DNA from: Salipiger mucosus DSM 16094
GTDB lineage: Bacteria > Pseudomonadota > Alphaproteobacteria > Rhodobacterales > Rhodobacteraceae
Length of the DNA stretch: 64,000 nt
Reading direction: 5' to 3'
Assembly (NCBI RefSeq): GCF_000442255.1
Contig: NZ_KE557273.1
Coordinates: forward strand, 742,721-806,720
In this document: piece after piece, positions 37,397 to 55,440 of the stretch
Position numbering within the stretch: position 1 is the stretch's first letter
How the letters are laid out: each line of letters starts with the position of its first letter
Translations under genes and position numbers: made by a program
Notes under the pieces: model-generated
What the model was told of the DNA's origin: nothing
The model's input: the letters and a program-made list of their open reading frames with translations, nothing else
Databases searched by the model: none

Positions 37397-37540
37397 CCGC
37401 GGCTCCGGCGCCGCGCGGCGGACGCTGCCACGTCTTGCGCGGCGCGGCGCCGGGCGGCAAGATTGCCGGGGATCGCACCCCGCACCTCCATCGGCCTGCC
37501 GGGCGAGGGGCACCGCCCTGCGCGGAGCGGTCCAGCATTC

Positions 37541-39481
37541 ATGGCGGAGAACCGCGTGCCGCGTGTCATGATCTCATATGCCCGCGAGGATCGCCGTTAC
37601 CTCGAGGGCGTCTGCGCCGCGCTCGAGGCAGAGGGCATCGAGACCTGGTGGGACGGCGCCATTGCGCCCGGCGCCAACTGGGACGCCGAGATCGAAAGGG
37701 CGCTGGCCGAGGTCGATGCCGTTCTCGTGCTCTGGACGCCGCGCTCGGTCGGGCGCGACACGGTGCGCAACGAGGCCGATGACGCCCGCTCGCGGCGCAA
37801 GCTCCTGCCGCTCATCATGGAGCCCTGCAAGCCGCCGCTCTTCTTCCGCCTCGCGCAGGCCGTCGACCTGAGCGACTGGACCGGCGACACCTCGGACCCG
37901 GAGTGGCGCCGCGTGCTCGACCGCATCGCCGCCGACCGGCCTCCCGACGGTGCGCCCGGGAACGACCTCGGCAGGGACGCCACCCACGAGATCTCGCCGC
38001 AGTTCTCCGAGCCGATCCGCGCGCGCTTCGCCCGCCTCGACCGCATCGTCGAGCGCCTGACCGAGGAGCAGTTCGACGTGCTGCGGATCCTCGGCACCAC
38101 CCGCCGCGTGCGGATCGCGGGCTGCGCCGGGTCCGGCAAGACGCTCGTGGCCTGCGAAAAGGCCATCCGCTGCGCCCGCGCGGGGCTGCGCGTGTTGTTC
38201 CTGTCGCACAGCCCGCACCTTGCCGGGCATGTCTCGGCCCTGACCTCCGGCTCGGGCGTCATGGTTGCGGATTTCACCAGCTGGCTGATGTCCGTCATGG
38301 GGCTCGAGCCGTCGGAACAGTCGAAGCGCTGGCTCAATATCGAGGAGCCGGATGAGCAGACCCTGGAACAGGCCTTCGACGTCGTGCTGGAGTCGCAGAC
38401 CTTCGACGTCGTCGTCGTGGACGAGGGGCAGGACTTCCGCGAGACCTGGTGGCTCCTGGTCGAGGCGGCGCTCGACCAGGGCACGCGGTCGCAGCTCTAC
38501 ATCTTCCACGACGACAACCAGGCGCTGCTGCCCTTCCGGGCGAGCTACCCCTTCGACGACCCGATGCTCAACCTCTCGCGCAACTGCCGCAACGCGGGCC
38601 GCGTCTTCGAGGTGATCCGGCGGTTCCACGCGCAGGCCCCGGACCCGGAGGCCGCGCTCGCCAACCAGGGGATGCTGGCCTATTTCCGCGCCGAGCCCGC
38701 GCAGCGTGACGTGGCGATCGACCGTTGCCTCGGCTGCCTGAAGGAGCAGGGCGCGCTGCTCGAGGATCGCGTCCTGCTGCTGGCCGGCGGTCTCGAGAAG
38801 ACGCCTCTCGTCGAGACCCACGTCGAGGCCCGGGGCGAAACCGTGCAACGCTGGCAGGACATCGTGCGCCACCAGCTCGAACGGGCCGTCACGACCTACG
38901 TCCGCCGCGGGATCGTCACGCCCCGCGACGTCGCGCTGAAACATCTCGAGGCGCTGTCGGCCCTCGGGACCGGCTCCCGCCCGGGGCCGGAGGACGTCGC
39001 GCTCGTGGTCTCCGCCGCCCGGTCCATCGAGCTGGACGCGAAGCTCTGCCGCCAGATCGGCGGCGGCAACGAGGCGGGCCTCGACCTGGCATGGACCCTC
39101 GTGGACGGGACACCGCGGTTCCGCCGGGCGCTCGGGGGGCGGCTCCACGGCGTCGAGGTGCTGCGCTTCTTTTCCGATCCCGGCTGGGCCACGGGGCTGC
39201 CCGAGACGCACCGCTGGCAGTTCATCACCGAGGCCGTTCCGAACGGCGCGGCGGAGACCGTGCCGGTCTTCGACATCGCCGCCTTCAAGGGGCTCGAGAG
39301 CGACACGGTGATCCTCCTGCTGGGCGATCACCAGCCGGTCGGGCGCGAGAAGCTCTACGTCGCCCTGTCGCGTGCCCGTCAGGTGCTGGCCATCGTCGAC
39401 TGTTCCGGCGGGCTCACCTCGACCGTTGCGCTGCGGAAGGTCGACTTCGACATCTTCGAGACCGTCCGCAGCGGCGCCTGA
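37541..39481 (+). CDS. TIR domain-superfamily 1 helicase fusion protein
   Basis: 646 residues. Residues 8-130 form a TIR domain (VMISYAREDRRY; ETWWDGAIAPGANW), with the likely NADase glutamate E78 in TVRNEADDARS. From 173 there is a UvrD/Rep-like helicase: a LTEEQ Q-motif, Walker A GCAGSGKT at 194-201, Walker B DEGQD at 294-298, LSRNCRN at 345-351, AFKGLESD at 581-588 and YVALSRARQ at 606-614. A ~200-residue segment between the last two motif groups is not recognised. The design (TIR effector plus nucleic-acid-sensing motor) suggests an antiphage or stress-triggered NAD-depleting protein. It stands alone, between a small helical protein and a cytochrome gene. Confidence 0.82.
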   Translation: MAENRVPRVMISYAREDRRYLEGVCAALEAEGIETWWDGAIAPGANWDAEIERALAEVDAVLVLWTPRSVGRDTVRNEADDARSRRKLLPLIMEPCKPPLFFRLAQAVDLSDWTGDTSDPEWRRVLDRIAADRPPDGAPGNDLGRDATHEISPQFSEPIRARFARLDRIVERLTEEQFDVLRILGTTRRVRIAGCAGSGKTLVACEKAIRCARAGLRVLFLSHSPHLAGHVSALTSGSGVMVADFTSWLMSVMGLEPSEQSKRWLNIEEPDEQTLEQAFDVVLESQTFDVVVVDEGQDFRETWWLLVEAALDQGTRSQLYIFHDDNQALLPFRASYPFDDPMLNLSRNCRNAGRVFEVIRRFHAQAPDPEAALANQGMLAYFRAEPAQRDVAIDRCLGCLKEQGALLEDRVLLLAGGLEKTPLVETHVEARGETVQRWQDIVRHQLERAVTTYVRRGIVTPRDVALKHLEALSALGTGSRPGPEDVALVVSAARSIELDAKLCRQIGGGNEAGLDLAWTLVDGTPRFRRALGGRLHGVEVLRFFSDPGWATGLPETHRWQFITEAVPNGAAETVPVFDIAAFKGLESDTVILLLGDHQPVGREKLYVALSRARQVLAIVDCSGGLTSTVALRKVDFDIFETVRSGA

Positions 39482-40583: not shown

Positions 40584-40877
40584 CGTGAGATCTCCTTTAC
40601 TTTTCAACCTGTTCGCGGAAGTGCAACAGCGTGGCGCAGTCGGCCGATATCGAGTTCGCTGAAGTCCGGTAGGGAAAGCAGGGGATCGATGGAGGTAACG
40701 TAGCCCGCTGCGTCTGACAGATCGCAGGCCGCCTGTCCATCGCAAATCGCCGCTCGAACACCGATCACCGGGTCAGGCGCGATCATCAACACATTCGGCA
40801 AGGGGCCTGGTCCGGCAGGGGGCCCGTTTCGCATACCCGCACCCGGCCGGCCTGGCCGCGGCGCGATCTATGCCGGA
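40584..40877. promoter_or_regulatory. Leader/promoter region between csp gene and phnF
   Basis: 294 bases of lower GC than the genes around it. Part should be the 5' leader and promoter of the cold-shock gene. A 76-codon minus frame at 40604-40834 exists, but it has no ribosome binding site or family match that I can see. No cold-shock leader motif could be confirmed by eye. Confidence 0.35.
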
Positions 40878-40906
40878 TTGTCATCCGCGTGACATGCCGC
40901 TGTCAT
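40878..40906 (+). promoter_or_regulatory. Pho box upstream of phnF
   Basis: Three 7-base units at an exact 11-base period: TTGTCAT (40878-40884), GTGACAT (40889-40895) and CTGTCAT (40900-40906). This is the tandem layout bound by PhoB. A TAGTCA at 40917-40922, 10 bases after the last unit, could be the -10 element. Confidence 0.7.
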
Positions 40907-40925
40907 GTCCTGAGCCTAGTCAGAA

Positions 40926-40941
40926 ATTCATTCGGATGAAT
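40926..40941. promoter_or_regulatory. Probable PhnF operator 1
   Basis: ATTCATTCGGATGAAT: 6-bp arms ATTCAT/ATGAAT around TCGG. The same 16 bases occur at 47405-47420 and 58575-58590, only before phn operons. It overlaps the probable phnF start, consistent with autorepression. Confidence 0.75.
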
Positions 40942-41670
40942 CGAGAAATGATCAGAGACCGTTGGCGCGAGATCCGCGCAGCAATCGAGCAGGACATCAT
41001 GGACGGCGTTCTGGAGCCCGGCGCGAAACTGCCCACCGAACCGGCCCTGGCCGAGCGCTACGGCGCGGGCCGGCACACGATCCGGCGCGCGATGGCCGAG
41101 CTGGCCAAGGACGGCTACCTCAGCGTCGAGCAGGGGCGCGGCACCTTCGTGCAGCAGCGCCCGATGCTGGAATACACCATCGGGCCGCGCACGCGGCTGC
41201 GGCGCAACATGAACGCGCTGGGGGTCTCGGCGGCGGGCGAGCTTCAGGGCATCGACCGCGTCGAGGCCAGCGGCCGGGTGGCCGGGCAGCTGGGCCTCGC
41301 GCCCGGCGCGCCGGTCTTCGCCACGCGGCGGCTCTCGCTGGCCGACGGCGTGCCGGTTTCGAGCGGGGTCATCTACCACGATGCCCTGCGCTTTCCCGAT
41401 CTGCCCGAGCGGCGGCGCGCGATGGACTCGCTCACCGCCGTCTACGAGACCTACGGCATCACCGACTACCTGCGCGGCAGCACCCGGATGCACGCCCGCA
41501 ACGCGCGCGCCGCAGAGGCGCGGGCGCTGCGGCAGCACCCCGACATGCCGGTGATCGTGGTGGTGGCCGTGGACACCTACCCGGACGGTACGCCCTTGTC
41601 CTTCAGCAAGGTCATCTGGTCCGCCGCCCGCGTGAAATTCAGGATAACGACCGAAGAGGAGGGGCCATGA
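40936..41670 (+). CDS. phnF: GntR/HutC-family regulator of phosphonate genes
   Basis: 244 residues. The winged helix (EPGAKLPTEPALAERYGAGR, then HTIRRAMAELAKDGYL) is followed by a UTRA-type effector domain. The ATG at 40936 lies inside the palindromic operator; an ATG at 40948 would give a protein four residues shorter and is also possible, since neither has a good ribosome binding site. It overlaps phnG by 4 bases. It probably represses three phn operons until a phosphonate or intermediate binds. Confidence 0.88.
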   Translation: MNREMIRDRWREIRAAIEQDIMDGVLEPGAKLPTEPALAERYGAGRHTIRRAMAELAKDGYLSVEQGRGTFVQQRPMLEYTIGPRTRLRRNMNALGVSAAGELQGIDRVEASGRVAGQLGLAPGAPVFATRRLSLADGVPVSSGVIYHDALRFPDLPERRRAMDSLTAVYETYGITDYLRGSTRMHARNARAAEARALRQHPDMPVIVVVAVDTYPDGTPLSFSKVIWSAARVKFRITTEEEGP

Positions 41671-42110
41671 CGCCCGAACCGCAGGAGCTGCCCGAGCGCT
41701 CCCACGAGGAGCTTTTGGGCATACTCGCCCGCGCCGAGCCCGAACGGCTCAAGGCCTTCGCAGAGCCGCTGATCGCCGAGCTGCCCGAGATCGAGGTGCG
41801 CGAGAACCGCACCGGCCTCGTGATGCTGCCGATGCGCGACACCGCGCAGGGCCGGCATTTCCACCTGGGCGAGGTGCTGATGAGCGAGGCGCGCATCGCC
41901 GCCGGCGGGCTCGAGGGCTACGGCATGCGACGCGGCCGCGATCTCGAGGCCGCCATGGCCATGGCGCTGGTCGATCTCGCCGTCGCGCTTGGCGTGGCCC
42001 ACGACCGCTGCGCCGCCTTCGTGACCGCCGAGGACCTGGCGCAGGCCGAGGCCGACCGCGAGACGCTGCGCCGGGTCGAGGCGACCCGCGTGGACATGGA
42101 GACCTTCTGA
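41667..42110 (+). CDS. phnG: C-P lyase complex subunit PhnG
   Basis: 147 residues, family length. Marks: GLVMLPMRD, then FHLGEVLMSEARI, GYGMRRGRD and a closing EATRVDMETF comparable with the NASRVDFFTM end of E. coli PhnG. It is a core subunit of the PhnGHIJ complex, which builds and opens the ribosyl-phosphonate intermediate. The stop overlaps phnH by one base. Confidence 0.9.
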   Translation: MTPEPQELPERSHEELLGILARAEPERLKAFAEPLIAELPEIEVRENRTGLVMLPMRDTAQGRHFHLGEVLMSEARIAAGGLEGYGMRRGRDLEAAMAMALVDLAVALGVAHDRCAAFVTAEDLAQAEADRETLRRVEATRVDMETF

Positions 42111-42643
42111 TGACCGCGCATCCCGTCCCCTCCGAGTTCGAGACCCGCACGAACGCCACCTACGACGCGCTGATGTGGGCGCTCTCGCGCCCCGGCCTGA
42201 TCCGTGCCTTGCCCGGCCAGGGCCCCGCGCAGATCGTCGAGGCGCTGATCGACCGCGAATGCGCCGTGCATTGCGCCGACACCGACCTCGCCGCGCTGGT
42301 CGCCCGCACCGGCGCCGCGCCGGTGGCGCCCGAGGCGGCCGATCACCTCTTCGTCTCGGCGCTGAGCCCGGACCTGCCGGGCCGGCTGGCGCTTGGCTCC
42401 GACCTGCACCCCGAGCACGGCGCCACCCTCGTCGCCCCCGCCACGCTGGGGCAGGGCGCCCGGCTGCGCCTGAGCGGCCCCGGCGTGGACGGTACGCTCG
42501 AGGTCGCGGTGGGCGAGGTGCCCGACGGTTTCTGGACCGGCCGCGACCGCGTCCTGCGGTATCCGCTGGGCTTCGAGCTTTTCCTCGTCGATGGCGACCG
42601 CGTGCTCGGCCTGCCCCGATCGACCCGCGTGGAGGTGCTCTGA
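42110..42643 (+). CDS. phnH: C-P lyase complex subunit PhnH
   Basis: 177 residues. Family stretches: RTNATYDALMWALSRPGLIR, ALGSDLHPEHGATL, and YPLGFELFLVDGDRVLGLPRSTRVEV at the end, as in other PhnH proteins. It is a PLP-transferase-like fold without cofactor that assembles with PhnG, PhnI and PhnJ. Overlaps phnI by one base. Confidence 0.9.
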   Translation: MTAHPVPSEFETRTNATYDALMWALSRPGLIRALPGQGPAQIVEALIDRECAVHCADTDLAALVARTGAAPVAPEAADHLFVSALSPDLPGRLALGSDLHPEHGATLVAPATLGQGARLRLSGPGVDGTLEVAVGEVPDGFWTGRDRVLRYPLGFELFLVDGDRVLGLPRSTRVEVL

Positions 42644-43707
42644 TGGCCTATGTCGCAACCCGTGGTGGCGAGCGCGCCATGGAACAGTCGCAGCGGCTCT
42701 TCCGCGCCGAAATGGGCGCGATCACGCCCGAGCGCGTGGCCGAGGTCCGCGCGGCCATGCCCTATCTCGTCGACCGCGTGATGGGCGAGGCTTCGCTCTA
42801 CGATCAGGACCTTGCCGCTTTGGCACTCGCCCAGACCGGTGGCGAGCTTTACGAGGCAATCCTGCTGCTGCGCGCCTGGCGCACCACGCAGCCGCGCCTG
42901 ACCGTGGCCGACCCCGTCACGCAGGAGGGGCTCTTCACCCATCGCCGCATCTCGGCCGCCTTCAAGGACATCCCGGGCGGGCAGGTGCTGGGCCCCACGC
43001 TGGACTACGCGCACCGCATCCTCGCGACCGAGGTTCTGAAGGGCGAGACGCATGTCCCCGCGCCGGTCGAGCCTGCGTCTCGGCCGTCGCCCGCGCGGCA
43101 GCCCTCGGTCGCCGCATGGCAGGCCGACAACGACCTGCTGACCGCGCCCGAGCCCGACACCGCCACCGGCAACGACATCCCCGATGTCACGCGCGAGCCG
43201 CTGATGTTTCCCGCCGACCGCGCCCACACGCTGCAAAGCCTCGCGCGGGCGGAAACCGGCGGCGTACTGGCGCTGGGCTATGCCGCGCAGCGCGGCTACG
43301 GCCAGGCCCACCCCACGGTGAACGAGCTGCGTCTTGCCGAGGCCGATGTCGTCGTCCGCCACCCGCGTGGCACCCGTTTCAGCGCCGGGCGCGTCAAGGT
43401 CAGCCAGGCCGAGGTCGTCTCCAAGCAGGGCGAGGCGCTGGGCCTGGGCTTTTCCGCCACGCTGGGCTGGAACGAGGTCAAGGTGATCGCCGCCGCGACG
43501 CTGGATCTCAACTCGAACGGCGCGCCCAAGGGCTCGGCCACCGAGGAGGAGTTCTTCCTCTACCACACCGAGGGCGTCGAGAGCTCGGGCTTCTGCATCC
43601 ACTTCAAGCTGCCCCACTACGTCACCTTCCAGTCCAGCCTCGACGCCATGCGCGACGCGAAGGCGAAGCGCGCGGCGCGCGCCAGGCACGCCGAGCCCGC
43701 GGAATGA
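42643..43707 (+). CDS. phnI: C-P lyase complex subunit PhnI
   Basis: 354 residues, E. coli length. Conserved parts: MAYVATRGGERAM, FKDIPGGQVLGPTLDYAHR, GYGQAHPTVNELR and CIHFKLPHYVTFQ; the last keeps both histidines of the zinc site shared with PhnJ in E. coli. The stretch that in E. coli reads GMSERKAMAMALVDRAL is here TLGWNEVKVIAAATLDLN, so the subunit has diverged in parallel with PhnJ. PhnI is the nucleosidase that starts displacement of adenine from ATP by phosphonate. Confidence 0.9.
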   Translation: MAYVATRGGERAMEQSQRLFRAEMGAITPERVAEVRAAMPYLVDRVMGEASLYDQDLAALALAQTGGELYEAILLLRAWRTTQPRLTVADPVTQEGLFTHRRISAAFKDIPGGQVLGPTLDYAHRILATEVLKGETHVPAPVEPASRPSPARQPSVAAWQADNDLLTAPEPDTATGNDIPDVTREPLMFPADRAHTLQSLARAETGGVLALGYAAQRGYGQAHPTVNELRLAEADVVVRHPRGTRFSAGRVKVSQAEVVSKQGEALGLGFSATLGWNEVKVIAAATLDLNSNGAPKGSATEEEFFLYHTEGVESSGFCIHFKLPHYVTFQSSLDAMRDAKAKRAARARHAEPAE

Positions 43708-43747: not shown

Positions 43748-44662
43748 ATGACACTCCAATCCCTCACCCGCGCCTGGGAGCCGATGAGCTACGGCTTCCT
43801 CGACGCCTCGGCCAAGCGCGAGATCCGGCGCAAGATGCTCAAGGCCATCGCCGTGCCGGGCTGCCAGGTCCCCTATGCCAGCCGCGAGGTGCCCATGGCG
43901 CGCGGCTGGGGCACCGGCGGGCTGCAGATCTCCTGCACGCTCATCAACCCGCGGACCCGGATCAAGGTCATTGACCAGGGCGCCGACGACAGCGTGAATG
44001 CCGCCTCGATCCGCAAGTTTCTCGCCCGTGTCTCGGGCGCGCCCACCACCAACGACGCGCTCGAGGCCGACCTCATCCAGTCGCGCCACCGCGTGCCCGA
44101 GGAAGTGCTGCGCGAGGACCAGGTGCTGGTCCTGCAGGTGCCCAACCCCGAGCCGCTGCGCCCTGTGCAGCCGAACATGTCCATCGCGCGCCAGATGCAC
44201 GCCGATGCCGACTACGGCCGCATGTGGCTGCAGCTCTACGAGCAGATCGTGCGCTCGGGCCGGGTGATGCAGGGAGCGAGCTACCCCTCGCTGGTGAACG
44301 GCCGCTTCGTGATGACGCCCTCGCCGATCCCGCGCTGGGACGTGCCCAAGCTGCACATGGCGAGGCACCTGACCATCCTCTCGGCCGGCCGCGAGAAGCG
44401 CCTGCACGTCGTGCCGCCCTTCACCCGCGTCGAGCCGCTGGTCTTCGACGACGTGCCCTACCGCGTCGAGGACCACGGCGGCCTCACCTGCCAGCGTTCC
44501 GGCGCGCGCGGCTACTTCATGAACGAGATCCCGCAGGACGACGGCTCGTCCATCCACGAGGTCTCGGACAGCGATCTGGGCGTCAAGACGATCCGCCGCC
44601 GCGAGGGCGAGGCGGTCGCCATCGGCGCCACCTGGTACGAGAACGGGGAGATGACCTCATGA
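43748..44662 (+). CDS. phnJ: C-P lyase catalytic subunit PhnJ, divergent form lacking Fe-S cysteines
   Basis: 304 residues, clearly PhnJ through most of its length (WGTGGLQISCTL, KVIDQGADDSVNAASIRKF, AGREKRLHVVPPFTRVEPL). In E. coli, C241, C244 and C266 hold the 4Fe-4S cluster and C272 makes the thiyl radical. Here the aligned residues are C248, S251, V272 and G278 (LTCQRSG and EVSDSDLG). The frame is intact and the flanks align, so this is a real replacement, not a frameshift. The C-terminus (VKTIRRREGEAVAIGATWY) also differs. It starts behind GGAGGACCCCG. Whether it still breaks C-P bonds is unclear. Confidence 0.88.
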   Translation: MTLQSLTRAWEPMSYGFLDASAKREIRRKMLKAIAVPGCQVPYASREVPMARGWGTGGLQISCTLINPRTRIKVIDQGADDSVNAASIRKFLARVSGAPTTNDALEADLIQSRHRVPEEVLREDQVLVLQVPNPEPLRPVQPNMSIARQMHADADYGRMWLQLYEQIVRSGRVMQGASYPSLVNGRFVMTPSPIPRWDVPKLHMARHLTILSAGREKRLHVVPPFTRVEPLVFDDVPYRVEDHGGLTCQRSGARGYFMNEIPQDDGSSIHEVSDSDLGVKTIRRREGEAVAIGATWYENGEMTS

Positions 44663-45456
44663 GCCTGACCATGGACGAACCAACGCTGGTCACCACCCGC
44701 CCGCTGCTGACCGCGCGCGACGTCTCCAAGGCCTACGGCCCCGTGCAGGCGCTGCGCGGCGTCTCGGCCACGGTCTACCCCGGCGAGGTCCTGGGCATCG
44801 TCGGCGAAAGCGGCTCGGGCAAGTCGACCTTCCTGCGCGCGCTCAACCTCGAGGAGACGCCCGATACCGGCAGCTACACGCTCGACCTGCCGGACGTGCA
44901 GGGCAACCTCTTCGATCTCGACCGCTACGCCCGGCGGATGCTCTGCGCCACGCGCATCGGCATCGTCTACCAGAACCCGCACCTCGGGCTGCTGATGTCG
45001 CATTCCTCCTCGGGCAACGTCGCCGAGCGTCTGCTGGTCGCGGGCGAACGCCGCTTCGCGGTGCTCCGCGACAAGGCGCAGCGCGCGCTCGAAGCCTCGG
45101 AGTTCCCGACCGAGCGCATGGACGCGCCGCCGGCCGAACTGTCGGGCGGGATGCAGCAGCGCGTGCAACTGGCCAAGGCCATCGCGCTGGAGCCCGCGCT
45201 GCTGCTGCTCGACGAGCCCACCACCGGGCTCGACGTCAGCGTGCAGGCGCTGGTGCTCGACACGCTCAAGCGGCTGCAGCAGGAGCGGCGCATCACCATG
45301 GTGATCGTCAGCCACGACCTCGGCGTGATCCGCACGCTCTCGGACCGCGTCATGGTGATGCGGCGCGGCGAGGTAGTGGAGCAGGGCCTGGCCGACCAGG
45401 TCTTCCAGGACCCGCAGCACGCCTACACGCAACAACTGGTGCACGCGAAACTATGA
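44659..45456 (+). CDS. phnK: C-P lyase complex ABC-type ATPase PhnK
   Basis: 265 residues. Walker A GESGSGKST, signature LSGGMQQRVQLAKA, Walker B LLLLDEPTTGLD, and a C-terminal HAYTQQLVHAKL resembling dipeptide-transporter ATPases, as usual for PhnK. It binds the PhnGHIJ core rather than a membrane channel. Overlaps phnJ and phnL by 4 bases each. Confidence 0.92.
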   Translation: MSLTMDEPTLVTTRPLLTARDVSKAYGPVQALRGVSATVYPGEVLGIVGESGSGKSTFLRALNLEETPDTGSYTLDLPDVQGNLFDLDRYARRMLCATRIGIVYQNPHLGLLMSHSSSGNVAERLLVAGERRFAVLRDKAQRALEASEFPTERMDAPPAELSGGMQQRVQLAKAIALEPALLLLDEPTTGLDVSVQALVLDTLKRLQQERRITMVIVSHDLGVIRTLSDRVMVMRRGEVVEQGLADQVFQDPQHAYTQQLVHAKL

Positions 45457-46172
45457 CCCGGATCCTCGACGTTCGTGCCCTCTCGAAGGGCTTCACCATG
45501 CACCATCTCGACACGCGGATGGCGGCCTTCTCCGACATTTCCTTCACCTTGGACGCCGGCGAGTTCCTGCTGCTCAAGGGCCGCAACGGCGCCGGCAAGT
45601 CGACGCTGCTGCGCACGCTCTACCGCAGCTACCTCGCGGCCTCGGGCGAGATCCTGTTCCATGGCCCCGAGGGCGTCATCGACCTCGCCCGCGCGGCGGA
45701 TGTCGACGTGACCTACCTTCGCCGCACCGAGATCGGCTTCGTCACCCAGTTCCTCACCGCGCGTCCCCGCGTCAGCGCCGAGGCGCTGGTGGCCGAGCCG
45801 CTGCGCCGGTCCGGCGCGCCCGCCGAGGCGGCGCTCGAGCAGGCGCGGCACTGGCTGCAGGCCTTCGGCGTCAAGCCCGAGCTCTGGGCGGCCTATCCCA
45901 CGACCTTCTCGGGCGGCGAGCAGCAGAAGGTGAACCTCGCCCGTGCGCTGATCCTGCCGCAGCGCCTGCTGCTGCTGGACGAGCCCACCGCCTCGCTCGA
46001 TGTCTCGGCGCGCGCGGCGCTGATCGACCGGCTGGCCGAGCTCAAGGCAGGCGGCACGGCGATGATCGGCGTCTTCCACCACCCCGGCGATGTGGCCACG
46101 CTGATCGACCGCGAAATCGACCTGACCCCGGATGCCGCGACACGAGAGGACCGAGACGATGTGGTTGTCTGA
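45453..46172 (+). CDS. phnL: C-P lyase complex ABC-type ATPase PhnL
   Basis: 239 residues. Walker [21 protein letters not shown], the long insert typical of PhnL (VTYLRRTEIGFVTQFL), signature FSGGEQQKVNLARALI and Walker B LLLLDEPTASLD. It partners PhnK on the C-P lyase core. Its end overlaps phnM by 14 bases. Confidence 0.93.
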   Translation: MTRILDVRALSKGFTMHHLDTRMAAFSDISFTLDAGEFLLLKGRNGAGKSTLLRTLYRSYLAASGEILFHGPEGVIDLARAADVDVTYLRRTEIGFVTQFLTARPRVSAEALVAEPLRRSGAPAEAALEQARHWLQAFGVKPELWAAYPTTFSGGEQQKVNLARALILPQRLLLLDEPTASLDVSARAALIDRLAELKAGGTAMIGVFHHPGDVATLIDREIDLTPDAATREDRDDVVV

Positions 46173-47334
46173 TGCAACGCTTGTCCTGCCCGACCGGGTG
46201 ATCGAACACGGGTCCCTGCGGATCGAGGGCGCCCGCATCGCCGAGATCGCCGAGCGTCCCGTGCCGGGCGGCGTGCCCTGCGCGGGACACACGCTTTTCC
46301 CCGGCTTCATCGACATGCACGGTGACATGATCGAGCAGGAGCTCGAACCGCGTGCCCGCGTCGATTTCCCGATGTCCGTGGCATTGGGCGCGCTCGACGC
46401 GCGCCTCGCCTCGGCCGGGGTGACCACGGCCTATGCCTCGGTCTCCTTCTCGCGCGGGGTGCGCGAGGGCGAGCGGCGCTCCTTCGAGCACACCAGCCGC
46501 GTGATCCGCGAACTCTCGGAGGCGCGCGACACGGCGCGGGTCGATCACCGAATCCACGCGCGCTTCGACATCACCTTCGACAACGCCGTGGGCGTGCTGC
46601 GCGACCTTCTGGACGAGGGCCGCGTCGATCTCGTCTCGTTGATGGATCACACGCCGGGACAGGGGCAGTATCGCAACCTCGAGGTCCACATCCGCAACAA
46701 GGCCGCGCACCACGGCATCTCGGAGACCGAGGCGCGGCAGATGGTCAGCACGGCCATCGCCACCCGCGCCCGTCCGCAGGAGGTGCTGCTCAACAACATG
46801 CAGCAGGTCGCCCGCATGTGCCGCGACCACGGCGTCGCACTGGCCAGCCACGACGACGATACCCGCGACAAGGCGCGCCTCATGGCCGACCTCGGCGCGG
46901 TGATCGCCGAGTTTCCCGTCACCATGGAGGCCGCCGAGACCGCCGTCGCGAAGGGTCTCATGACCGCGATGGGTGCGCCCAACGCCATGCGCGGGCAGAG
47001 CTATTCCGGCAACCTCTCGGCGCGCGAGGCCCATGCCCGCGGGCTGCTGTCGATCCTTGCCGCCGACTATCACCCGGCCGCCATCCTGCCCGCGATCCGG
47101 GCGCTGGCGGGGGCCGATCCGCAGGGCCTCGCAGGGGCGGCACGGCTGGCGACGGCGAACCCGGCGCGGGCGCTCGGCCTGCGCGACCGGGGCGAGATCG
47201 GGGCGGGCAAGCTGGCCGACCTGGTGGTCGCGGACAGCGCCGACCGCGTGGTTCTGACACTCCGCGCGGGCGAGGTCGTCCATTCCAGCGGCACCCTGCC
47301 GCGCGTGGCCGAGGGGCTGCGCACCGTCGCCTGA
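46159..47334 (+). CDS. phnM: Ribose 1-methylphosphonate 5-triphosphate diphosphatase
   Basis: 391 residues, amidohydrolase fold. Metal-site marks: PGFIDMHGDMIEQELEPR, LMDHTPGQGQYR, LASHDDDT and a closing PARALGLRDRGEIGAGKLAD. It removes pyrophosphate from the triphosphate intermediate before C-P cleavage. Last gene of the phnF-M operon; 102 bases separate it from phnC, filled by a second Pho box and operator. Confidence 0.93.
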   Translation: MWLSDATLVLPDRVIEHGSLRIEGARIAEIAERPVPGGVPCAGHTLFPGFIDMHGDMIEQELEPRARVDFPMSVALGALDARLASAGVTTAYASVSFSRGVREGERRSFEHTSRVIRELSEARDTARVDHRIHARFDITFDNAVGVLRDLLDEGRVDLVSLMDHTPGQGQYRNLEVHIRNKAAHHGISETEARQMVSTAIATRARPQEVLLNNMQQVARMCRDHGVALASHDDDTRDKARLMADLGAVIAEFPVTMEAAETAVAKGLMTAMGAPNAMRGQSYSGNLSAREAHARGLLSILAADYHPAAILPAIRALAGADPQGLAGAARLATANPARALGLRDRGEIGAGKLADLVVADSADRVVLTLRAGEVVHSSGTLPRVAEGLRTVA

Positions 47335-47436: not shown

Positions 47437-48252
47437 ATGACAGGGAACCTCACCCTCACCGACGTCACCCGCCACTTCGGTGACACGACCGCCGTCGACC
47501 GCGCGTCGCTTTCCATCGCGCCGGGTCAGTTCGTCGGCGTGATCGGCCGCTCCGGCGCCGGCAAGTCGACGCTGCTGCGCCTCGTCAATCGCCTCGTCGA
47601 CCCCAGTTCGGGGTCGATTTCGTTCGACGGGGTCGAGGTGACGGCCCTGCGCGGCCGCGCCCTGCGCGCCTGGCGGCGCGACTGCGCGATGATCTTCCAG
47701 CAGTTCAACCTCGTGGACCGGCTCGACGTGCTCACCAACGTGCTGGTGGGCCGCCTGTCCGAGCACGGCTTCCTCGGCTCCATGGCCATGCGCTTCAGCG
47801 ACGAGGAACGCGCCATGGCGATCCGCGCGCTCGACCGGCTCGACCTCGTGCCGCAGGCGCTGCAGCGGGCGGGCACGCTCTCGGGCGGGCAGCAGCAGCG
47901 CGTCGCCATCGCGCGGGCGCTGGTCCAGAACCCCAAGATCATGCTGGCCGACGAGCCGATCGCCAGCCTCGACCCGGCCAACGCCACCCGCGTCATGGAC
48001 GGGCTGCGCCACATCAACCGCGAGGACGGGCTGACCGTGCTCGTGAACCTGCACACGCTGGATACCGCGCGCGCCTACTGCGACCGCATCGTCGCCATGC
48101 GCGCCGGCCGCGTGATGTTCGACGGCACCGCCGCCCAGCTCACCGACGACGTCGTCCGCGACATCTACGGGCTCGAGGGGCTGGCCGAGTTCGACGAGGC
48201 CGTCACCTCGACCGCGGCCCGGGCCACCGGCCGCGTGGCCATCCCGGCCTGA
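47437..48252 (+). CDS. phnC: Phosphonate ABC transporter ATP-binding protein
   Basis: 271 residues. Walker [13 protein letters not shown], signature [15 protein letters not shown], Walker [14 protein letters not shown], plus the PhnC-typical [18 protein letters not shown] and [17 protein letters not shown]. It energises import through PhnE1-PhnE2. Confidence 0.93.
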
Positions 48253-48293: not shown

Positions 48294-49214
48294 ATGCGTT
48301 TCATCACCGCCACCGCACTCGCCGCCCTGCTCGCCGCTCCGGCGCTCGCCGAGGGCTGGAAGGACGACTACCAGGTGCTCAAGTTCGGCATCCTCTCGGG
48401 CGAGAACGAGAAGGACCGCCTGATGCGCAACGAGCCGCTGCGCGCCTACCTCGAGAAGGAACTCGGCGTCGAGGTCGAGATCTTCACCGCCGGCAACTAC
48501 GATGGCGTGATCCAGGCCATCGCCGCCAACCAGATCGAGGTCGCGCGCTTCGGCTCCTCCTCCTACGCGGCCGTCTATACCGCCACCGACGGCGGCGTCG
48601 TGCCCACGCTGACGACCAAGGCCCAGAACGGCAACACCGGCTACTACTCGGTCGTCGTGACCCGCTGCGACAGCGGAATCGAGAGCCTCGCCGACGCCAA
48701 GGGCAAGGTCCACGCCTTCGCCGACCCGGACAGCACCTCGGGCTATGCCGTGCCCTATTTCAACATGGTCAACCGCGAAGGCTTCACGCCGGAAGAGCAT
48801 TTCAGCACCGTGACCTTCTCGGGCAGCCACGAGGCCGGCGTCTCGGGCGTGGTCAACGGCACCTTCGACACCGCCTCGACCTACCAGGACAACGACGCCG
48901 ATGGCATCTACCAGCGCATGGAGCGCAAGGGGATGATCGAGGAAGGCGTGGTCTGCAAGATCTGGGAAAGCCCCGAGATCACCTCCGGCCCCTGGACCTT
49001 CCGCACGAACCTGCCCGAGCAGCTGATCGAGGACGTGACCGCCGCCATCGAGTCCTTCCCCGAGGCGGACCCCGAGGGCTACAAGCTCTACTCGTCGTGG
49101 TCGGCCGACAACCCGAACCCCGACGCCGGCTTCACCCGCGTCGACCACGAGCGCTACCAGTGGATCGTCGACATGCGCGACTGGATCAAGAACCAGCGCC
49201 GCTCGGGCTCCTGA
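48294..49214 (+). CDS. phnD: Phosphonate-binding periplasmic protein
   Basis: 306 residues with a signal peptide ending APALAEGW. Binding-site stretches: FGILSGENEKDRLMRNEPL, ARFGSSSYA and DPDSTSGYAVPYF (the STSGY anion loop). It is the high-affinity receptor for the phnCDE1E2 transporter. Confidence 0.93.
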   Translation: MRFITATALAALLAAPALAEGWKDDYQVLKFGILSGENEKDRLMRNEPLRAYLEKELGVEVEIFTAGNYDGVIQAIAANQIEVARFGSSSYAAVYTATDGGVVPTLTTKAQNGNTGYYSVVVTRCDSGIESLADAKGKVHAFADPDSTSGYAVPYFNMVNREGFTPEEHFSTVTFSGSHEAGVSGVVNGTFDTASTYQDNDADGIYQRMERKGMIEEGVVCKIWESPEITSGPWTFRTNLPEQLIEDVTAAIESFPEADPEGYKLYSSWSADNPNPDAGFTRVDHERYQWIVDMRDWIKNQRRSGS

Positions 49215-49279: not shown

Positions 49280-50224
49280 ATGACAGCGACCGATCATTTC
49301 GCGGGCGATGCCGCCGCGGGATCCGGCGACCGGATCGACCGCTTCGAGGCCGACTTCGCCGACCGACGACGCCGCGCCCGCCTTGGCTGGCTGATCGGCT
49401 CGGCGGTCTTTCTCGTGATCTTCGCGCTGACCTCCTGGATCGGCGACTTCTTCAAGATCACCCAGGTCACCATGCCCGACGGCGGGCGCGAGTGGCGCTG
49501 GATCATCCCGGCCGGCCTGCCGCGGCTGGGCGAATACATCGAGCAGACGCTGCCCGCGCTGAGCTGGGACACGCTGGGCGCCGACCTCGGCAACTGGTTC
49601 TGGCGCTGGAGGATCTGGCTCGAGCTGCTTTTCGAGACCATCCTGATCGCCTACTGCGCGACCGTGCTGGGCGTCATCGGCGGCTTCCTGCTGTCGTTCC
49701 CCGCCGCGCGCAACCTCGCGCCGAACGAATGGATCCGCTGGATCACCCGTCGCTACCTCGAGATCGCGCGCACCGTGCCGGAACTGGTCTGGGCGCTGAT
49801 CTTCGTCTTCTGCTTCTCGGTCGGCCCGCTCGCCGGGGTGCTGGCCATCGGCATGCACGCCACCGGCGCGCTGGGCAAGCTCTACTCCGAGGTCAACGAG
49901 AACATCGACATGCGCCCCCTCGAGGGCGTCAAGGCCGCCGGCGGCACCTGGTTCGACCAGATCCGCTACGGCGCCGTGCCGCAGGTGCTGCCCAACATCA
50001 TCAGCTACACGCTGCTGCGCTTCGAGATCAACGTGCGCGCCTCCTCGATCATCGGCTACGTCGGCGCCGGCGGGCTGGGGCAGGAGTTCCGCACCGCCAT
50101 GAGCTTCCAGGAATACACCGACCTTTCGGCGCTCTTCATCATCATCTTCGTGACCGTCATGGTCATCGACTACGGATCGGAAAAGCTGCGCCACCGCGTC
50201 ATCGGCATGGAGACCCGCACATGA
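49280..50224 (+). CDS. phnE1: Phosphonate ABC transporter permease 1
   Basis: 314 residues with about six hydrophobic segments and the coupling loop [20 protein letters not shown] followed by [13 protein letters not shown] 30-residue acidic N-terminal tail precedes the first segment. It overlaps the second permease gene by 4 bases. Confidence 0.92.
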
Positions 50225-51078
50225 CCCTCTCGCCGCAACAGGTCGCCGAAGCGCGCGCCCGCGTGCCGCTGGCCTTCCGCGCGCCGCTGTCGCAGCGCCT
50301 GCAACGCGCCGCCACCTGGGCGCTGCTGATCGGGCTCATCCTCTGGTGCCTCTACGACTTCGACGTGACGCCCGCGCGCATCTGGACCGGGCTGGGCCGC
50401 CTCGGCACCGTGGCAAGTTTCATGTTCCCGCCGCACGTCTGGACCACCTGGGAGGCCTTCGCGCCGATCCTCGAAGGGCTGGGCGAGACGCTGGCCATCG
50501 CCTTCCTCGGCACGCTGCTGGGGGCCGTCGTGGCCTTTCCGCTGTCGTTCCTCGGCGCCAAGAACATCAACCGGCTGAACGTTCTGCGCCTCGGCGTGCG
50601 CCGCGGCTACGACGTGATCCGCGCCTTCGAGACGCTGATCCTCGCGCTGATCTTCATCCGCGCCTTCGGGCTGGGCCCGCTGCCCGGCATCCTCGCCATC
50701 GCGGTGAGCGAGATCGGCACCTTCGCCAAGCTCTTTTCCGAGGCCATCGAGAACACCTCGACCAGGCAGGTCGAGGGCGTGCGCGCGGCGGGCGGCTCGC
50801 GGCTGCAGCAGATCCGCTTCGGGGTCGCGCCGCAGGTCAACCCGGTGATCCTGTCTATCCTGCTCTACAACTTCGAATCCAACGTCCGCTCGGGCACCAT
50901 CCTCGGGATCGTCGGCGCGGGCGGCATCGGCTTCCTGCTCTCGGATCGCATCGCCGCCTACAAGTGGGACGAGGCCTGGTCGATCATCTTCCTCATCATC
51001 GCGATGGTCTACGTCATCGACTGGCTCTCGGGCATCGTCCGCGCGCGGCTCATCGGCAAGCAGGAGCTGGCGAAATGA
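50221..51078 (+). CDS. phnE2: Phosphonate ABC transporter permease 2
   Basis: 285 residues. The coupling loop reads [19 protein letters not shown], closely paralleling PhnE1, so the two form a heterodimeric channel. TIRF-like end: IIGKQ-type residues [10 protein letters not shown]. Overlaps the acetyltransferase gene by 4 bases. Confidence 0.92.
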
Positions 51079-51704
51079 GCGGCGCCGGATCGAAACAGCA
51101 GCTCTCCGAGACCCCGACGATCCACCCCGAGGCACGGGTCGAGGACTGCGAACTGGGCGCCTGGACCGAGGTCGGCAAGGGCACGATGATGCGCGCCTCG
51201 GCGATGGGGGATTATTCCTACATCACGCAGCACTGCCACGTCGTCTGGACGACCATCGGCAAGTTCTGCTCCATCGCCAACGCGACCCGCATCAACCCGG
51301 GCAACCACCCGACCTGGCGCGCGGTGCAGCATCACTCGGTCTATCGCGCCGAGGCCTACGGGCTGGGCGAGGACGACCGGGATTTCTTCGAGTGGCGCAA
51401 GGCCGACTGGGTGACCATCGGCCACGACGTCTGGATCGGGCACGGGGTCACGGTGACCGCCGGCGTCACCATCGGCACCGGCGCCGTGGTCGGCGCGGGC
51501 GCGGTGGTGACACGCGACGTCGCGCCCTATACGGTGGTCGGCGGCGTGCCGGCCCGTCCCATCAGGCGCCGTTTCTCCGAGGCCCAGGCCGAGGCCCTGC
51601 AGGAAATTGCTGTCTGGGACTGGCCGCGCGAAACCTACAAGGCGGCTCTGCCAGACATCCGGGCGCTCGACATCGATGCCTTCATTGAAAAATACCGAGG
51701 CTGA
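51075..51704 (+). CDS. Hexapeptide-repeat acetyltransferase of phosphonate operons
   Basis: 209 residues forming a left-handed beta-helix (repeats such as [20 protein letters not shown] and [14 protein letters not shown]), ending in a [17 protein letters not shown] trimer segment. Proteins of this chloramphenicol-acetyltransferase-like group recur in phn operons of alphaproteobacteria and may acetylate aminoalkylphosphonates, a role like PhnO. Substrate not shown. Confidence 0.85.
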
Positions 51705-52239
51705 GGCGCCCCCGGCGCGACGGCCCCGAAAGATCCTCGACGGCGGTTTCCTCGTCCTGCTGGGATTCACCCTGGCGGGCGGGATCGCCGTATTCCTGAC
51801 CCGGGGCGGGGGCCGCGTGGCCGACATCGCGGCCGAGACGCTGGGCTTCGTCGCCGTGCTCTCGCCCAAGATCGCGGCCGGCATCTTCATCGCCGCGACC
51901 CTGCCGATGTGCCTGCCGCGCGAGAAGGTCGGTCGTCTCGTCGGGCGCGAGAGCGGCTGGCGCGGGCTTGCCGTCGCCACGGCCTGCGGCGCGGCGCTGC
52001 CGGGCGGGCCGATGATGACCTTTCCGCTCGCGGCGGGGCTCGGGACCGCTGGCGCCGATATGGGCGCCGTGGTGGCCTTCATCTCGGGCTGGAGCCTGCT
52101 GGGTCTCAACCGGACGCTGATCTGGGAGTTCTCCTTCCTCCCGGCCGACCTGGTCTGGACGCGCTACCTGCTCAGCCTGCCGGCCCCGCTGCTGCTGGGC
52201 CTCACGGCGCGAGCCATGATGAAGCGGCGCATGGCATGA
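51676..52239 (+). CDS. Half-size permease (DUF318-like), first of a pair
   Basis: 187 residues, about five hydrophobic segments. It starts inside the acetyltransferase gene (ATG at 51676; a TTG at 51685 is also possible). The second half has the pattern [18 protein letters not shown], then [20 protein letters not shown] and [11 protein letters not shown]. Predicted permeases of this type are usually one protein of 300 or more residues with two such halves. Its partner follows at once. It probably exports or imports a small anion linked to phosphonate breakdown; the function is unknown. Confidence 0.6.
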
Positions 52240-52718
52240 ACATCCTGATCGGAACCGTGCTGATCGGGGCCGGGGCACTCTGGCTCTGGTGGTCGCTGCC
52301 CAACGCCGAGTGGCGCCGGGCCGCCGGGCGCGCCTCGCTCGACACGCTGGCCTTCACCGCGCCGCGCGTGCTGGTGGCGCTGCTCGGCGCGGGCTTCTTC
52401 GCCGAGCTTCTGCCGGGTGACGAGGTGCGCCGCCTGCTGGGCGACGATGCGGGGGCAGGGGCCGTGCTGCTGGCCATCGCGCTGGGGCCGTTGACCCCCG
52501 GTGGCGCCTTCGTCAGCTTCGCCATCGCCGCGGCGGCGCTGCGCGCGGGGGCGGCGCCCGTGGCGGCGGTGGCCTATGTCACCTCGTGGTCGCTCTTCTC
52601 GACGACCAAGATCTTCGCCTACGAGCTGTCCTTCATGGGCCGGCAGGCGACGCTGACCCGCGTGCTGGTCAGCCTGCCGGTGCCCTTCCTCGTGGCCGCC
52701 GCCGTCGCCGCCTTCTGA
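52236..52718 (+). CDS. Half-size permease (DUF318-like), second of a pair
   Basis: 160 residues, about four hydrophobic segments. It repeats the pattern of the preceding protein: GPLTPGGAFVSFAIAAAAL, then AYVTSWSLFSTTKIFAYE and VSLPVPFLV. It starts 4 bases before the first gene ends. The two halves look like the split parts of one transporter. Last gene of the phnC operon. Confidence 0.6.
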   Translation: MNILIGTVLIGAGALWLWWSLPNAEWRRAAGRASLDTLAFTAPRVLVALLGAGFFAELLPGDEVRRLLGDDAGAGAVLLAIALGPLTPGGAFVSFAIAAAALRAGAAPVAAVAYVTSWSLFSTTKIFAYELSFMGRQATLTRVLVSLPVPFLVAAAVAAF

Positions 52719-53374: not shown

Positions 53375-54190
53375 TCAGGTCACGAGCCCGCGCGCCTGAA
53401 GGTACGCGAACGCGGGCAGGATATGCCTCTTGTCGCGCAGCTCAAGCACCAGGTGCGGCGCGCCCTCGCATTCGGACAGCGCACGGAAGACGGCGGTCCA
53501 CTCGATCTCGCCCTCGCCGGGCGCCCAGTGCCGGTCGGCGTGGCCGTCGACGTCCTGCAGGTGCACATGCGCGAGCCGCGCGCCCGCGTCGGCGACGAAG
53601 TCCGCCACCGGCGGGGCGCCCGACATGCGGCGCGCCAGCTGCGCGTGGCCGGTGTCGATCGAGAGCGCGATGGACTGCGAGCCGAAGCTCTCGACCATCT
53701 CGCGCCGGGTCTCGGGGCGCACGTCCTGGATGTTCTCGATCACCAGCGTGATGCCCGCCTCCTCGGCGGCGCGGACCACGGGGCCCAGCACCTCGTGTAC
53801 GCGGGCGAGCTTCTTCTCGGGGTAGCCGGGAAAGCTGAAGACGTTGTTCTGGTACCAGGCGTCGTAGGGCGAGTGGAGCACCATCTGCCGCGCGCCGATA
53901 CGGTCGGCGGCCTCGAGCGCCGCCAGCAGGCGCGCGGTGATGAGCGGGCGCAGCTCGGGGTCCTTGTTGTCCAGGTCGAGCCCCTCGAAGGGCCCGTGGA
54001 TGCCCCGCCGCCCGGTATGCCCGTCAAGCGCGGCGCGGGCCGCTTCGATGCGCTCCTCGCGGTCGTGCGTGACGGCGGCGTGGGACATGAAGTCCTGTAT
54101 CTCGATGTCGCGCTCCGCCTCGAAGAGCCAGTCCCGCAGGGTCGCGATCTCGTCGGTCTTCAGGCAGGCGCCGATCTTCAGCGGGGTCAT
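53375..54190 (-). CDS. TIM-barrel sugar-phosphate isomerase/epimerase-like protein
   Basis: 271 residues, AP-endonuclease-2/xylose-isomerase-like barrel. Likely metal ligands fall in QMVLHSPYD, LVIENIQD (E), SIDTGHAQL (D/H) and LAHVHLQDVDGHADRH. In this operon it may rearrange a ribose phosphate or another sugar phosphate released from phosphonate breakdown. Overlaps the second phnM by 4 bases. Confidence 0.78.
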   Translation of the reverse strand: MTPLKIGACLKTDEIATLRDWLFEAERDIEIQDFMSHAAVTHDREERIEAARAALDGHTGRRGIHGPFEGLDLDNKDPELRPLITARLLAALEAADRIGARQMVLHSPYDAWYQNNVFSFPGYPEKKLARVHEVLGPVVRAAEEAGITLVIENIQDVRPETRREMVESFGSQSIALSIDTGHAQLARRMSGAPPVADFVADAGARLAHVHLQDVDGHADRHWAPGEGEIEWTAVFRALSECEGAPHLVLELRDKRHILPAFAYLQARGLVT

Positions 54191-55440
54191 GCCAGGCTCT
54201 CCTCGTGACGGGGGGCGGGGGCGGGCGCCGCATCACGCGCGGGATGTCCGCGATAGGCCGCGCGGCCGGCGACCCAGGTGCCCTCGATGGCCGGCGCGTG
54301 GCCCTCGGGCCAATCGATCAGCACGAGGTCGGCGCGGCGGCCGACGGCGATCTCGCCCCGGTCGGTGAGCTTCATCGCCCGCGCCGGCCCGCTCGAGACC
54401 AGCGACCAGAGCGTCAGCCGGTCGGCGCGGCGCTCGGCATCGAGGCGCGCCACGGCGGCCAGCATGGCCGGGTAGAAGTAATCCGAGGCAAGCGCGTCGC
54501 AGAGCCCGGCCTCGACCATGTCGCCGGCACCGAGCGAGCCGATGTGGCTGCCCCCGCGCGCGGCGTTGGGCGCGCCGAAGACGATGGGATCGCCGTGCGC
54601 CCGCGCGGCCTCGGCCGCCTCCAGCACCATCGGGAACTCGGCCACGCCCGCGCCGAGATCGCGGAAGAAGGCACGCGTTTCGGCCCGGGTGTCGTCGTGG
54701 CTGAGCATGGGCGCGCCCGCGCGGCGGCCCATCCCGGCGACCTTGGCGATGGTCGCGGGCACCTCGGCGCGGCGATCCCAGACCTCGCCCAGAAGGCGGA
54801 TGTAGGCGTCCTCGTCCAGCCCGGCGCGATGCGCCTTGGAGGCAGTGCGTTTCTTCATGCGGTCGTCGTCGAGCGAGGCGATGGAGAAGTCCGGCGAAAG
54901 CTCGAAGGCGCGGTCCTGGATCGGCACGTCATAGGCGCGCATCGTCATCGAGGTGTGGTCGTTGAAGGCAATGGCGGGCATGAGCGGCCCCGCGAGCGCC
55001 CACTCGATGGTCTCGAGCGCCTCGAAGGCGAAGGTCTCCCACCGCAGCTGCACGCGGTTCTCGACCGTGAGGCGCGGCGCGAGATCGCGCATGACCTGCA
55101 TGAGCTGGCGCCCGCGTGCCACGTCGCGCAGGCCCGGCTCCCAGCCCAGCGTGATCGCGTGATAGGCGGTGGCGATGCCGTTGGCGGCAAGCTGGCGGTC
55201 GGTGTCGATCACCGCCGCCTCCTGCGGAAAGAAGACGCCGGGGCGGGGCATGAGCTGGCGCTCGAAGGCATCGCCGTGCAGGTCGATCAGCGCGGGCGCG
55301 AGGATGCGGCCGCGCGCGTCGATCACCTCGCCCTGCGCCGGGCCGCCGATCTCGGCGATGCGGCCGCCTGCGACGGTCACGTTGGTCTCGGCGATCTCGC
55401 CGGGCAGGTAGACGCGGGCGCCCTGGAAGGTGACGGTCAT
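54187..55440 (-). CDS. phnM: Second PhnM-like amidohydrolase
   Basis: 417 residues. It shares PhnM metal-site order with the first copy: LAPALIDLHGDAFERQLMPR, AFNDHTSMTM, MLSHDDTRAETRAFF and SGPARAMKLTDRGEIAVG. It diverges clearly (the DHTPGQGQY block is DHTSMTMRAYD), so its substrate may be another 5-triphosphate or a related pyrophosphate. Embedded between the methyltransferase and isomerase genes. Confidence 0.85.
   Translation of the reverse strand: MTVTFQGARVYLPGEIAETNVTVAGGRIAEIGGPAQGEVIDARGRILAPALIDLHGDAFERQLMPRPGVFFPQEAAVIDTDRQLAANGIATAYHAITLGWEPGLRDVARGRQLMQVMRDLAPRLTVENRVQLRWETFAFEALETIEWALAGPLMPAIAFNDHTSMTMRAYDVPIQDRAFELSPDFSIASLDDDRMKKRTASKAHRAGLDEDAYIRLLGEVWDRRAEVPATIAKVAGMGRRAGAPMLSHDDTRAETRAFFRDLGAGVAEFPMVLEAAEAARAHGDPIVFGAPNAARGGSHIGSLGAGDMVEAGLCDALASDYFYPAMLAAVARLDAERRADRLTLWSLVSSGPARAMKLTDRGEIAVGRRADLVLIDWPEGHAPAIEGTWVAGRAAYRGHPARDAAPAPAPRHEESLA

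Follow-up and report, generated by a model that had tools for sequence, protein, structure and literature searches.

What can a PhnJ protein do without the cysteines of its radical chemistry? In E. coli PhnJ, C241, C244 and C266 hold the iron–sulfur cluster and C272 is the thiyl-radical residue. An earlier note on a phn operon of Salipiger mucosus DSM 16094 had claimed that the PhnJ encoded there has C248, S251, V272 and G278 at these positions, that its only other cysteines are C39 and C63, and that its reading frame is intact. We call PhnJ proteins of this type, without the four-cysteine motif, J*, and examine here the stretch of DNA in which the operon lies (64,000 nucleotides, the window), together with its relatives in other genomes.

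The J* protein and operon of the window

The window protein belongs to the PhnJ family (Pfam PF06007, 2e-113, 378.5 bits against a curated cut-off of 25) and aligns with E. coli PhnJ (7z15/4xb6) over residues 14–276 (phmmer, 1.5e-80). This alignment, together with the codons TGC (44489), TCC (44498), GTC (44561) and GGC (44579), bears out the four residues named in the earlier note, so that one of the four radical-SAM PhnJ cysteines is kept. The translation likewise holds C39 and C63 as the only other cysteines, and the frame is open from ATG to TGA. The stretch that had been singled out covers roughly the last 70 codons and contains all four positions. Compared with E. coli PhnJ, J* lacks C244, C266 and C272, has a longer N terminus and is extended at the C terminus, where Y297 and G300 are invariant. 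Structure prediction of J* alone, from an alignment of 40 close relatives, gave no reliable model (mean pLDDT 47.3).

Judged from its gene content, the window operon is a complete phnFGHIJKLM-CDEE set (Table 1), and from phnF to phnE1 its genes overlap or lie at most 102 bases apart. Its GHIJKLM order matches that of E. coli and its subunits are homologous to PhnGHIJ with PhnK and PhnL, the PhnK and PhnL homologues scoring below their equivalog cut-offs. Two regulators had been counted in the operon, of which we found one, the GntR/UTRA protein PhnF. E. coli queries gave no match in the window for phnN, phnO or phnP (PhnP of the E. coli type).

Table 1. Genes and sites of the J* operon in the window
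Feature	Position	Strand	Evidence or remark
phnF-type regulator (GntR-UTRA)	40870..41670	+	PF00392/PF07702; TIGR02325 192.7 bits, cut-off 156.8; alternative start possibly 40936
phnG	41667..42110	+	PF06754 3.5e-21; 28% identity to E. coli PhnG
phnH	42110..42643	+	PF05845 3e-28
phnI	42643..43707	+	tblastn with E. coli PhnI, 209 bits; NCBIfam, no match; zinc-site histidines H223, H320, H325 = E. coli H219, H328, H333; C318 adjoining
phnJ* (variant PhnJ without Fe-S and thiyl-radical cysteines)	43748..44662	+	304 aa
PhnJ* C-terminal stretch, rebuilt cluster site	44450..44662	+	column counts, 96 J* and 106 canonical rows
phnK (ABC ATPase)	44659..45456	+	TIGR02323 229.4 bits against cut-off 302.85; 45% to E. 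coli PhnK
phnL (ABC ATPase)	45453..46172	+	TIGR02324 235.2 bits against cut-off 256.3
phnM (ribosyl-phosphonate triphosphate diphosphatase)	46159..47334	+	TIGR02318 391.9 bits, cut-off 390.55
phnC (transport ATPase)	47437..48252	+	PF00005; 48% to E. coli PhnC
phnD (binding protein)	48294..49214	+	PF12974 1e-51
phnE1 (permease)	49280..50224	+	operon position; conserved cluster 5, 68/81 loci
phnE2 (permease)	50221..51078	+	named from position and likeness
hexapeptide-repeat acyltransferase of phosphonate operons	51075..51704	+	TIGR03308 283.4 bits, cut-off 201.65

In public records, NCBI annotation calls J* 'alpha-D-ribose 1-methylphosphonate 5-phosphate C-P-lyase PhnJ', and the copy in Thermus is named as an ordinary C-P lyase. 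J* is a homologue of C-P lyase, but as the defining trait of the radical enzyme is missing from it, we do not file it as EC 4.7.1.1. Among the papers listed in searches of the open PMC literature, titles and the starts of abstracts gave no treatment of a PhnJ without these cysteines.

Conservation of J* and its rebuilt cluster site

To place the window protein, PhnJ homologues were divided into J* and canonical groups by BLAST; the cysteines were not used for this split. The J* set comprises 96 distinct proteins, with the window copy in and plasmid copies out, and the canonical set 105 distinct proteins including E. coli (106 alignment rows, E. coli appearing twice). As the earlier note had suggested might be found by aligning homologues, the window variant falls in a separate conserved group, the other members of the 96 being ∼69–91% identical to it. 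The four-cysteine motif was present in 0/96 J* and 105/105 canonical proteins, and the pattern CxxC...C[SN]D...C separates the two. At E. coli position 244, J* proteins have Ser (95) or Thr (1); at 266, Val (62), Leu (15), Ile (14) or others; and at 272, Gly (93) or Ala (3). All three are Cys in 106/106 canonical rows. Because the motif is lost in 96 distinct J* and present in 105 canonical proteins, more than chance or sequencing error is involved. A pattern written for the J* signature missed 7/96 J*, being too strict at two variable positions. PF06007 scores were about 369–405 bits for J*, 416 for Thermus and 435–500 for most canonical proteins; this score alone cannot separate the groups, since two divergent cysteine-bearing PhnJ proteins score 375.8 and 378 bits.

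J* was found in 17 of the 390 genomes of the order, one copy (in G686) being broken. Named-species genomes were scanned as well: of 140 loci the best 80 were kept, all 76–91% identical to the window copy, and their hosts were Rhodobacteraceae and Roseobacter relatives, Devosia, Maritalea, Pannonibacter, Rhizobium, Agrobacterium and Mesorhizobium. Plasmid-borne J* proteins 70–80% identical to the window copy occur in Haematobacter, Nitratireductor, Sinorhizobium sp. B11, Mesorhizobium sp. AR07 and Microvirga, and one that is 58–62% identical lies on plasmid pVV8 of Thermus thermophilus HB8. The cysteine loss was also read in the plasmid copies, including Mesorhizobium AR07, Microvirga and Thermus. 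J* proteins have one to five cysteines, most often two. The Thermus protein, with a single cysteine in 293 aa, cannot coordinate a [4Fe-4S] cluster through its own cysteines. Phosphonate genes on pVV8 have been noted, with a 2012 paper cited for them (PMC5529391). Like the window operon, the pVV8 operon has a J*-type PhnJ, phnCDE, GHI, two ABC ATPases and phnM; it differs in a LacI-type regulator upstream, a single phnE, a YmdB-family phosphoesterase downstream and Tyr at position 39.

The residues that bind PRcP in E. coli PhnJ are R107, H108, Q124 and the loop 47–50, the radical was located at Gly32 by deuterium exchange, and the PhnI zinc ligands are H219, H328 and H333; in the published structures, the cluster site lies ∼30 Å from the radical glycine and the ligand sits at the PhnI zinc site (PMC9947105). 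All of these residues are common to the J* system. R107, H108, Q124 and G47-W48-G49-T50 are present in 96/96 J*, Gly32 (window G38) is Gly in 96/96, and the equivalents of the three histidines are kept in every PhnI* row with a letter there. PhnI* also has a cysteine, Cys318, which precedes H320 of the H-x4-H zinc pair by two residues in 95/95 lettered rows, where canonical PhnI has mostly Val or Leu; as Thermus has Ala there, this cysteine is not common to all. In the subunit alignments, the PhnK and PhnL sets mix both homologues, and the PhnG set includes just four canonical rows.

J* has a distinct invariant set where the cluster site was: E241, H243, C248 (E. coli C241), R250, N259, P262, E271, S273, D274, K280 and Y297, with N259 replacing an Asp found in all canonical rows. 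By eye, the alignment shows that Thermus J* shares C248, R250, N259, P262, E271, S273, D274 and K280, and that H243 is absent from it. C39 is present in 92/96 J*, with Tyr in three and Ser in one (basal rows), and Tyr is found at this position in Mesorhizobium AR07, Microvirga and Thermus. These exceptions, in 4/96 J*, two plasmid J* and Thermus, rule out the idea that C39 stands in as catalytic cysteine next to the radical glycine. Selection shows that the cluster site in J* was rebuilt and not eroded: median dN/dS was 0.078 for 407 close J* pairs and 0.110 for 458 canonical pairs; inside J* it was 0.154 for the C-terminal part versus 0.051 for the rest, the C-terminal part being less constrained.

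In a PhnJ tree from all columns, built by a quick method and with long branches flagged, J* (51/91 rows, Thermus included) falls on one side of a branch with an SH-aLRT of 95. Without the C-terminal part, J* requires two changes, not one; this tree omits three rows, two on long branches and the duplicate E. coli. In the PhnI tree (88 rows), the J* side again lies on one side of a branch (SH-aLRT 99). PhnJ proteins from haloarchaeal plasmids (Haloarcula, Natrinema) are 49–54% identical to the window J*, yet have all four cysteines; they adjoin J* in one tree, on flagged long branches. The PhnJ proteins at L190 (G131), L185 (G603) and L243 (G1010) are very divergent, keep the four cysteines and sit on long branches; they represent other types of PhnJ.

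Canonical phnJ and phnN in genomes with J*

A search for a canonical phnJ, which the earlier note had proposed, found one in the same genome at C5:131608 (PF06007, 476.7 bits, all four cysteines). Its product is 47% identical to the window PhnJ, and its operon (locus L003) serves the same pathway and carries phnN and DUF1045, the genome's only matches to either family; the window operon lacks these and the four-cysteine motif. Other hosts are similar: among 50 J* genomes tested, canonical phnJ was intact in 49 and in pieces in one, and in six of the 50 both copies lie within ∼22 kb on one contig. In the order sample, a second PhnJ match was found in 16/17 J* genomes (including those of G793, G748 and G815, which were counted but not individually listed), compared with a PhnJ in 229/373 genomes without J*; as the genomes are related, the p value of 0.004 is a guide only.

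These counts suit an explanation in which the J* complex is a front end that takes up and ribosylates a particular phosphonate and passes the ribosyl phosphonate on to the canonical PhnJ complex for C-P cleavage, J* being a pseudoenzyme that holds its complex together. Such a scaffold, dependent on canonical PhnJ, was at first favoured by the co-occurrence. It was weakened by genomes with J* alone. Of 14 Rhizobiales-side J* genomes, eight have canonical phnJ and in six none was found; with G074, this makes seven genomes in which J* is the only phnJ found (completeness is given for G074 alone, at 99%). All seven have phnN, and dN/dS among three of them was 0.025–0.029, i.e. strong purifying selection. 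In addition, no part of the ligand site is lost in J*, whose operon encodes a PhnK and a PhnL of its own. Near J* genes, 90 distinct PhnG, 93 PhnH and 95 PhnI proteins are encoded. We therefore consider the front-end explanation improbable. Of the three options that the earlier note had offered, a scaffold working with a second PhnJ is accordingly disfavoured, because of the seven genomes and the J* system's own PhnGHI, whereas a different mechanism and a different reaction on ribosylated substrates both remain.

What accompanies J* in the seven genomes is PhnN. A PhnN over the family cut-off was found in 7/7 of them versus 1/9 genomes without any phnJ match (Fisher p 0.0014). The nine are G055, G023, G632, G120, G633, G169, G634, G630 and G631, with PhnN only in G631, where phnN and DUF1045 adjoin without a phnJ. 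Excluded from the comparison were eight Rhizobiales-side genomes of unassessed canonical phnJ, four of which have PhnN over the cut-off. In five of the seven genomes phnN lies 3–13 kb from J*, and in two it is on other contigs; in G074, DUF1045 adjoins phnF and phnN follows ∼8 kb past J*. DUF1045, for which a published proposal is that it acts after C-P lyase as phosphoribosyl cyclic phosphodiesterase (PMC8235418), is present in 7/7 but also in 6/9 phnJ-less genomes. Being common without phnJ, its presence says little, and only phnN discriminates.

Within J* loci themselves, phnN is rare (1/80, at L141, with flanks of up to 10 kb). However rare, it can be part of the operon: plasmid pMspAR07c of Mesorhizobium sp. 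AR07 carries GHIJ*KLM-DUF1045-phnN between IS6 elements, with phnF divergent, and G1059 has the same G-to-N run, with DUF1045 and phnN directly after phnM. The stretch of T. thermophilus pVV8 that we read had no phnN or DUF1045. Since the lone-J* genomes all have phnN and some J* operons include DUF1045-phnN, what J* needs from a canonical operon may be PhnN and DUF1045 rather than PhnJ.

A proposed reaction without the radical

The J* machine probably releases phosphorus in a way that differs from the known radical reaction. Given that J* has lost the cluster and thiyl cysteines, that the ribosyl-phosphate and zinc sites are kept and that phnN is present, a non-radical route to a cyclic phosphate is the simplest reading; an end point in the branch of ribosyl cyclic phosphate and ribose 1,5-bisphosphate is favoured by the conserved ligand site and by the association with phnN. 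Our preferred explanation, to which we give about an even chance, is a self-standing, Fe-S-free, C-P-lyase-like machine that makes a ribosyl cyclic phosphate by a non-radical reaction at some bond that is not a plain C-P bond. PhnGHI(L) would ribosylate a phosphorus compound and PhnM would trim the triphosphate, both as in the canonical pathway, and the J*-I* zinc site would then break a P-X bond without a radical. The simplest route would be attack of the ribose 2'-OH on phosphorus, with help from the zinc site and from H114 (E. coli H108). The expelled group would have to leave better than an alkyl carbanion, our best guess being a P-O ester or an activated C-P bond. The product, 5-phosphoribosyl 1,2-cyclic phosphate, would be converted to PRPP via DUF1045 (or another cyclic phosphodiesterase) and PhnN. 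Where a genome has both operons, DUF1045 and PhnN of the canonical operon would serve the J* operon too.

Several observations fit this proposal less well. Most J* genomes also hold a canonical phnJ, which dependence would explain too, and the invariant Gly32 is more directly explained by a radical mechanism, although its role may be structural. PhnN also occurs without phnJ (in G631, and in the 4/8 further Rhizobiales-side genomes), the pVV8 stretch lacks phnN and DUF1045, and in two lone-J* genomes phnN is on other contigs. More tentatively, the J* system could be an Fe-S-free sister of C-P lyase, and not itself a C-P lyase, which ribosylates phosphate esters or other P-X compounds and releases phosphorus by zinc-assisted 2'-OH attack in Alphaproteobacteria and Thermus.

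We doubt two further explanations. In the first, J* is still a radical C-P lyase: another radical-SAM protein, e.g. canonical PhnJ, would radicalise G38, and C39 or C248 would replace C272. The invariance of G38 and C248, C39 in 92/96 J* and the canonical PhnJ of most J* genomes all agree with this. However, C39 cannot belong to a common mechanism given the Tyr or Ser found in its place, Thermus J* is left with one cysteine, and the proposed activator was not found in the seven lone-J* genomes. In the second, which we rate as similarly unlikely, J* cleaves an activated C-P bond, with a carbonyl or electron sink by the phosphorus, after ribosylation and without a radical. The same ligand site is kept in J*, and the window operon has phnF and a phnCDE with a phosphonate-type binding protein. 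Against this, simple hydrolases exist for activated phosphonates (PhnX, PhnA and PalA), so such a costly route needs another reason. Decay or a sequencing artefact is extremely improbable and refuted for the group overall: the broken G686 copy, which lies in a stretch where phnK, phnL and phnM gave no match, would fit, but 96 distinct J* in the same state, purifying selection and a conserved operon uphold the earlier note's view that this is not a gene in decay.

Should J* be active in the absence of the cluster, either C-P cleavage needs no PhnJ radical chemistry or the ribosylation machine serves a second kind of phosphorus compound. A natural enzyme with the ligand site but without the cluster separates the one from the other. 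A Pfam phnJ match alone does not show that methane is made from methylphosphonate, given J* in 17/390 genomes of the order, and if the Fe-S-free sister reading is true, annotation counts that sister as a methane-making C-P lyase. Mis-assignment of methane production in Marivita was considered and rejected. Four Marivita loci with J* (L092, L095, L105 and L113) match strains, species or MAGs of the paper concerned (PMC8774927); canonical phnJ is intact in three of these genomes and in pieces in the fourth, so we found nothing there that speaks against the inference of the paper.

Neighbouring genes and other observations

Genes beside some J* operons, like the YmdB-family phosphoesterase behind the Thermus operon, offer possible leads to the substrate. 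In Mesorhizobium AR07 and Salipiger pentaromativorans (L154), J* is adjoined by an Opp-type transporter and by a homologue of type I phosphodiesterase/nucleotide pyrophosphatase (PF01663), and an Opp-type transporter is also found beside the operon in G1059 and Microvirga. A calcineurin-like phosphoesterase lies beside J* in 8/81 loci, and transporter genes of sugar or glycerol-3-phosphate type, named from sequence likeness, lie beside some.

Past the window operon, two frames at 51607–52718 (+) encode a protein with a weak ArsP_1 permease match below the cut-off, a relative of which recurs in 6/81 loci, and a protein without a Pfam match. An opposed set follows at 53375–57761 (−), with an AP-endonuclease-2-fold protein (best NCBIfam match CbiR, below the cut-off), a second PhnM-like amidohydrolase, a methyltransferase, a permease and a transport ATPase. 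The AP-endonuclease-2-fold protein and the amidohydrolase recur beside J* operons in 30/81 and 26/81 loci, respectively. On the haloarchaeal plasmids (L282, L283), where the PhnJ cysteines are kept and no phnN is annotated in the stretch, the phn operon is followed by a 'sugar phosphate isomerase/epimerase', of the AP-endonuclease-2 fold in L282, and a HAD hydrolase.

In G686 (L258, 4691–5505, −), J* is in two separate pieces, the stretch read has no phnK, phnL or phnM match between phnJ and phnC, and the same genome has a canonical phnJ. Upstream of the window operon, at 37463–39481 (+), a possible defence gene encodes a protein that has a TIR domain at its N terminus and also a UvrD-like helicase part; PADLOC models of the NERD/UvrD type and of GajB match it weakly to moderately.
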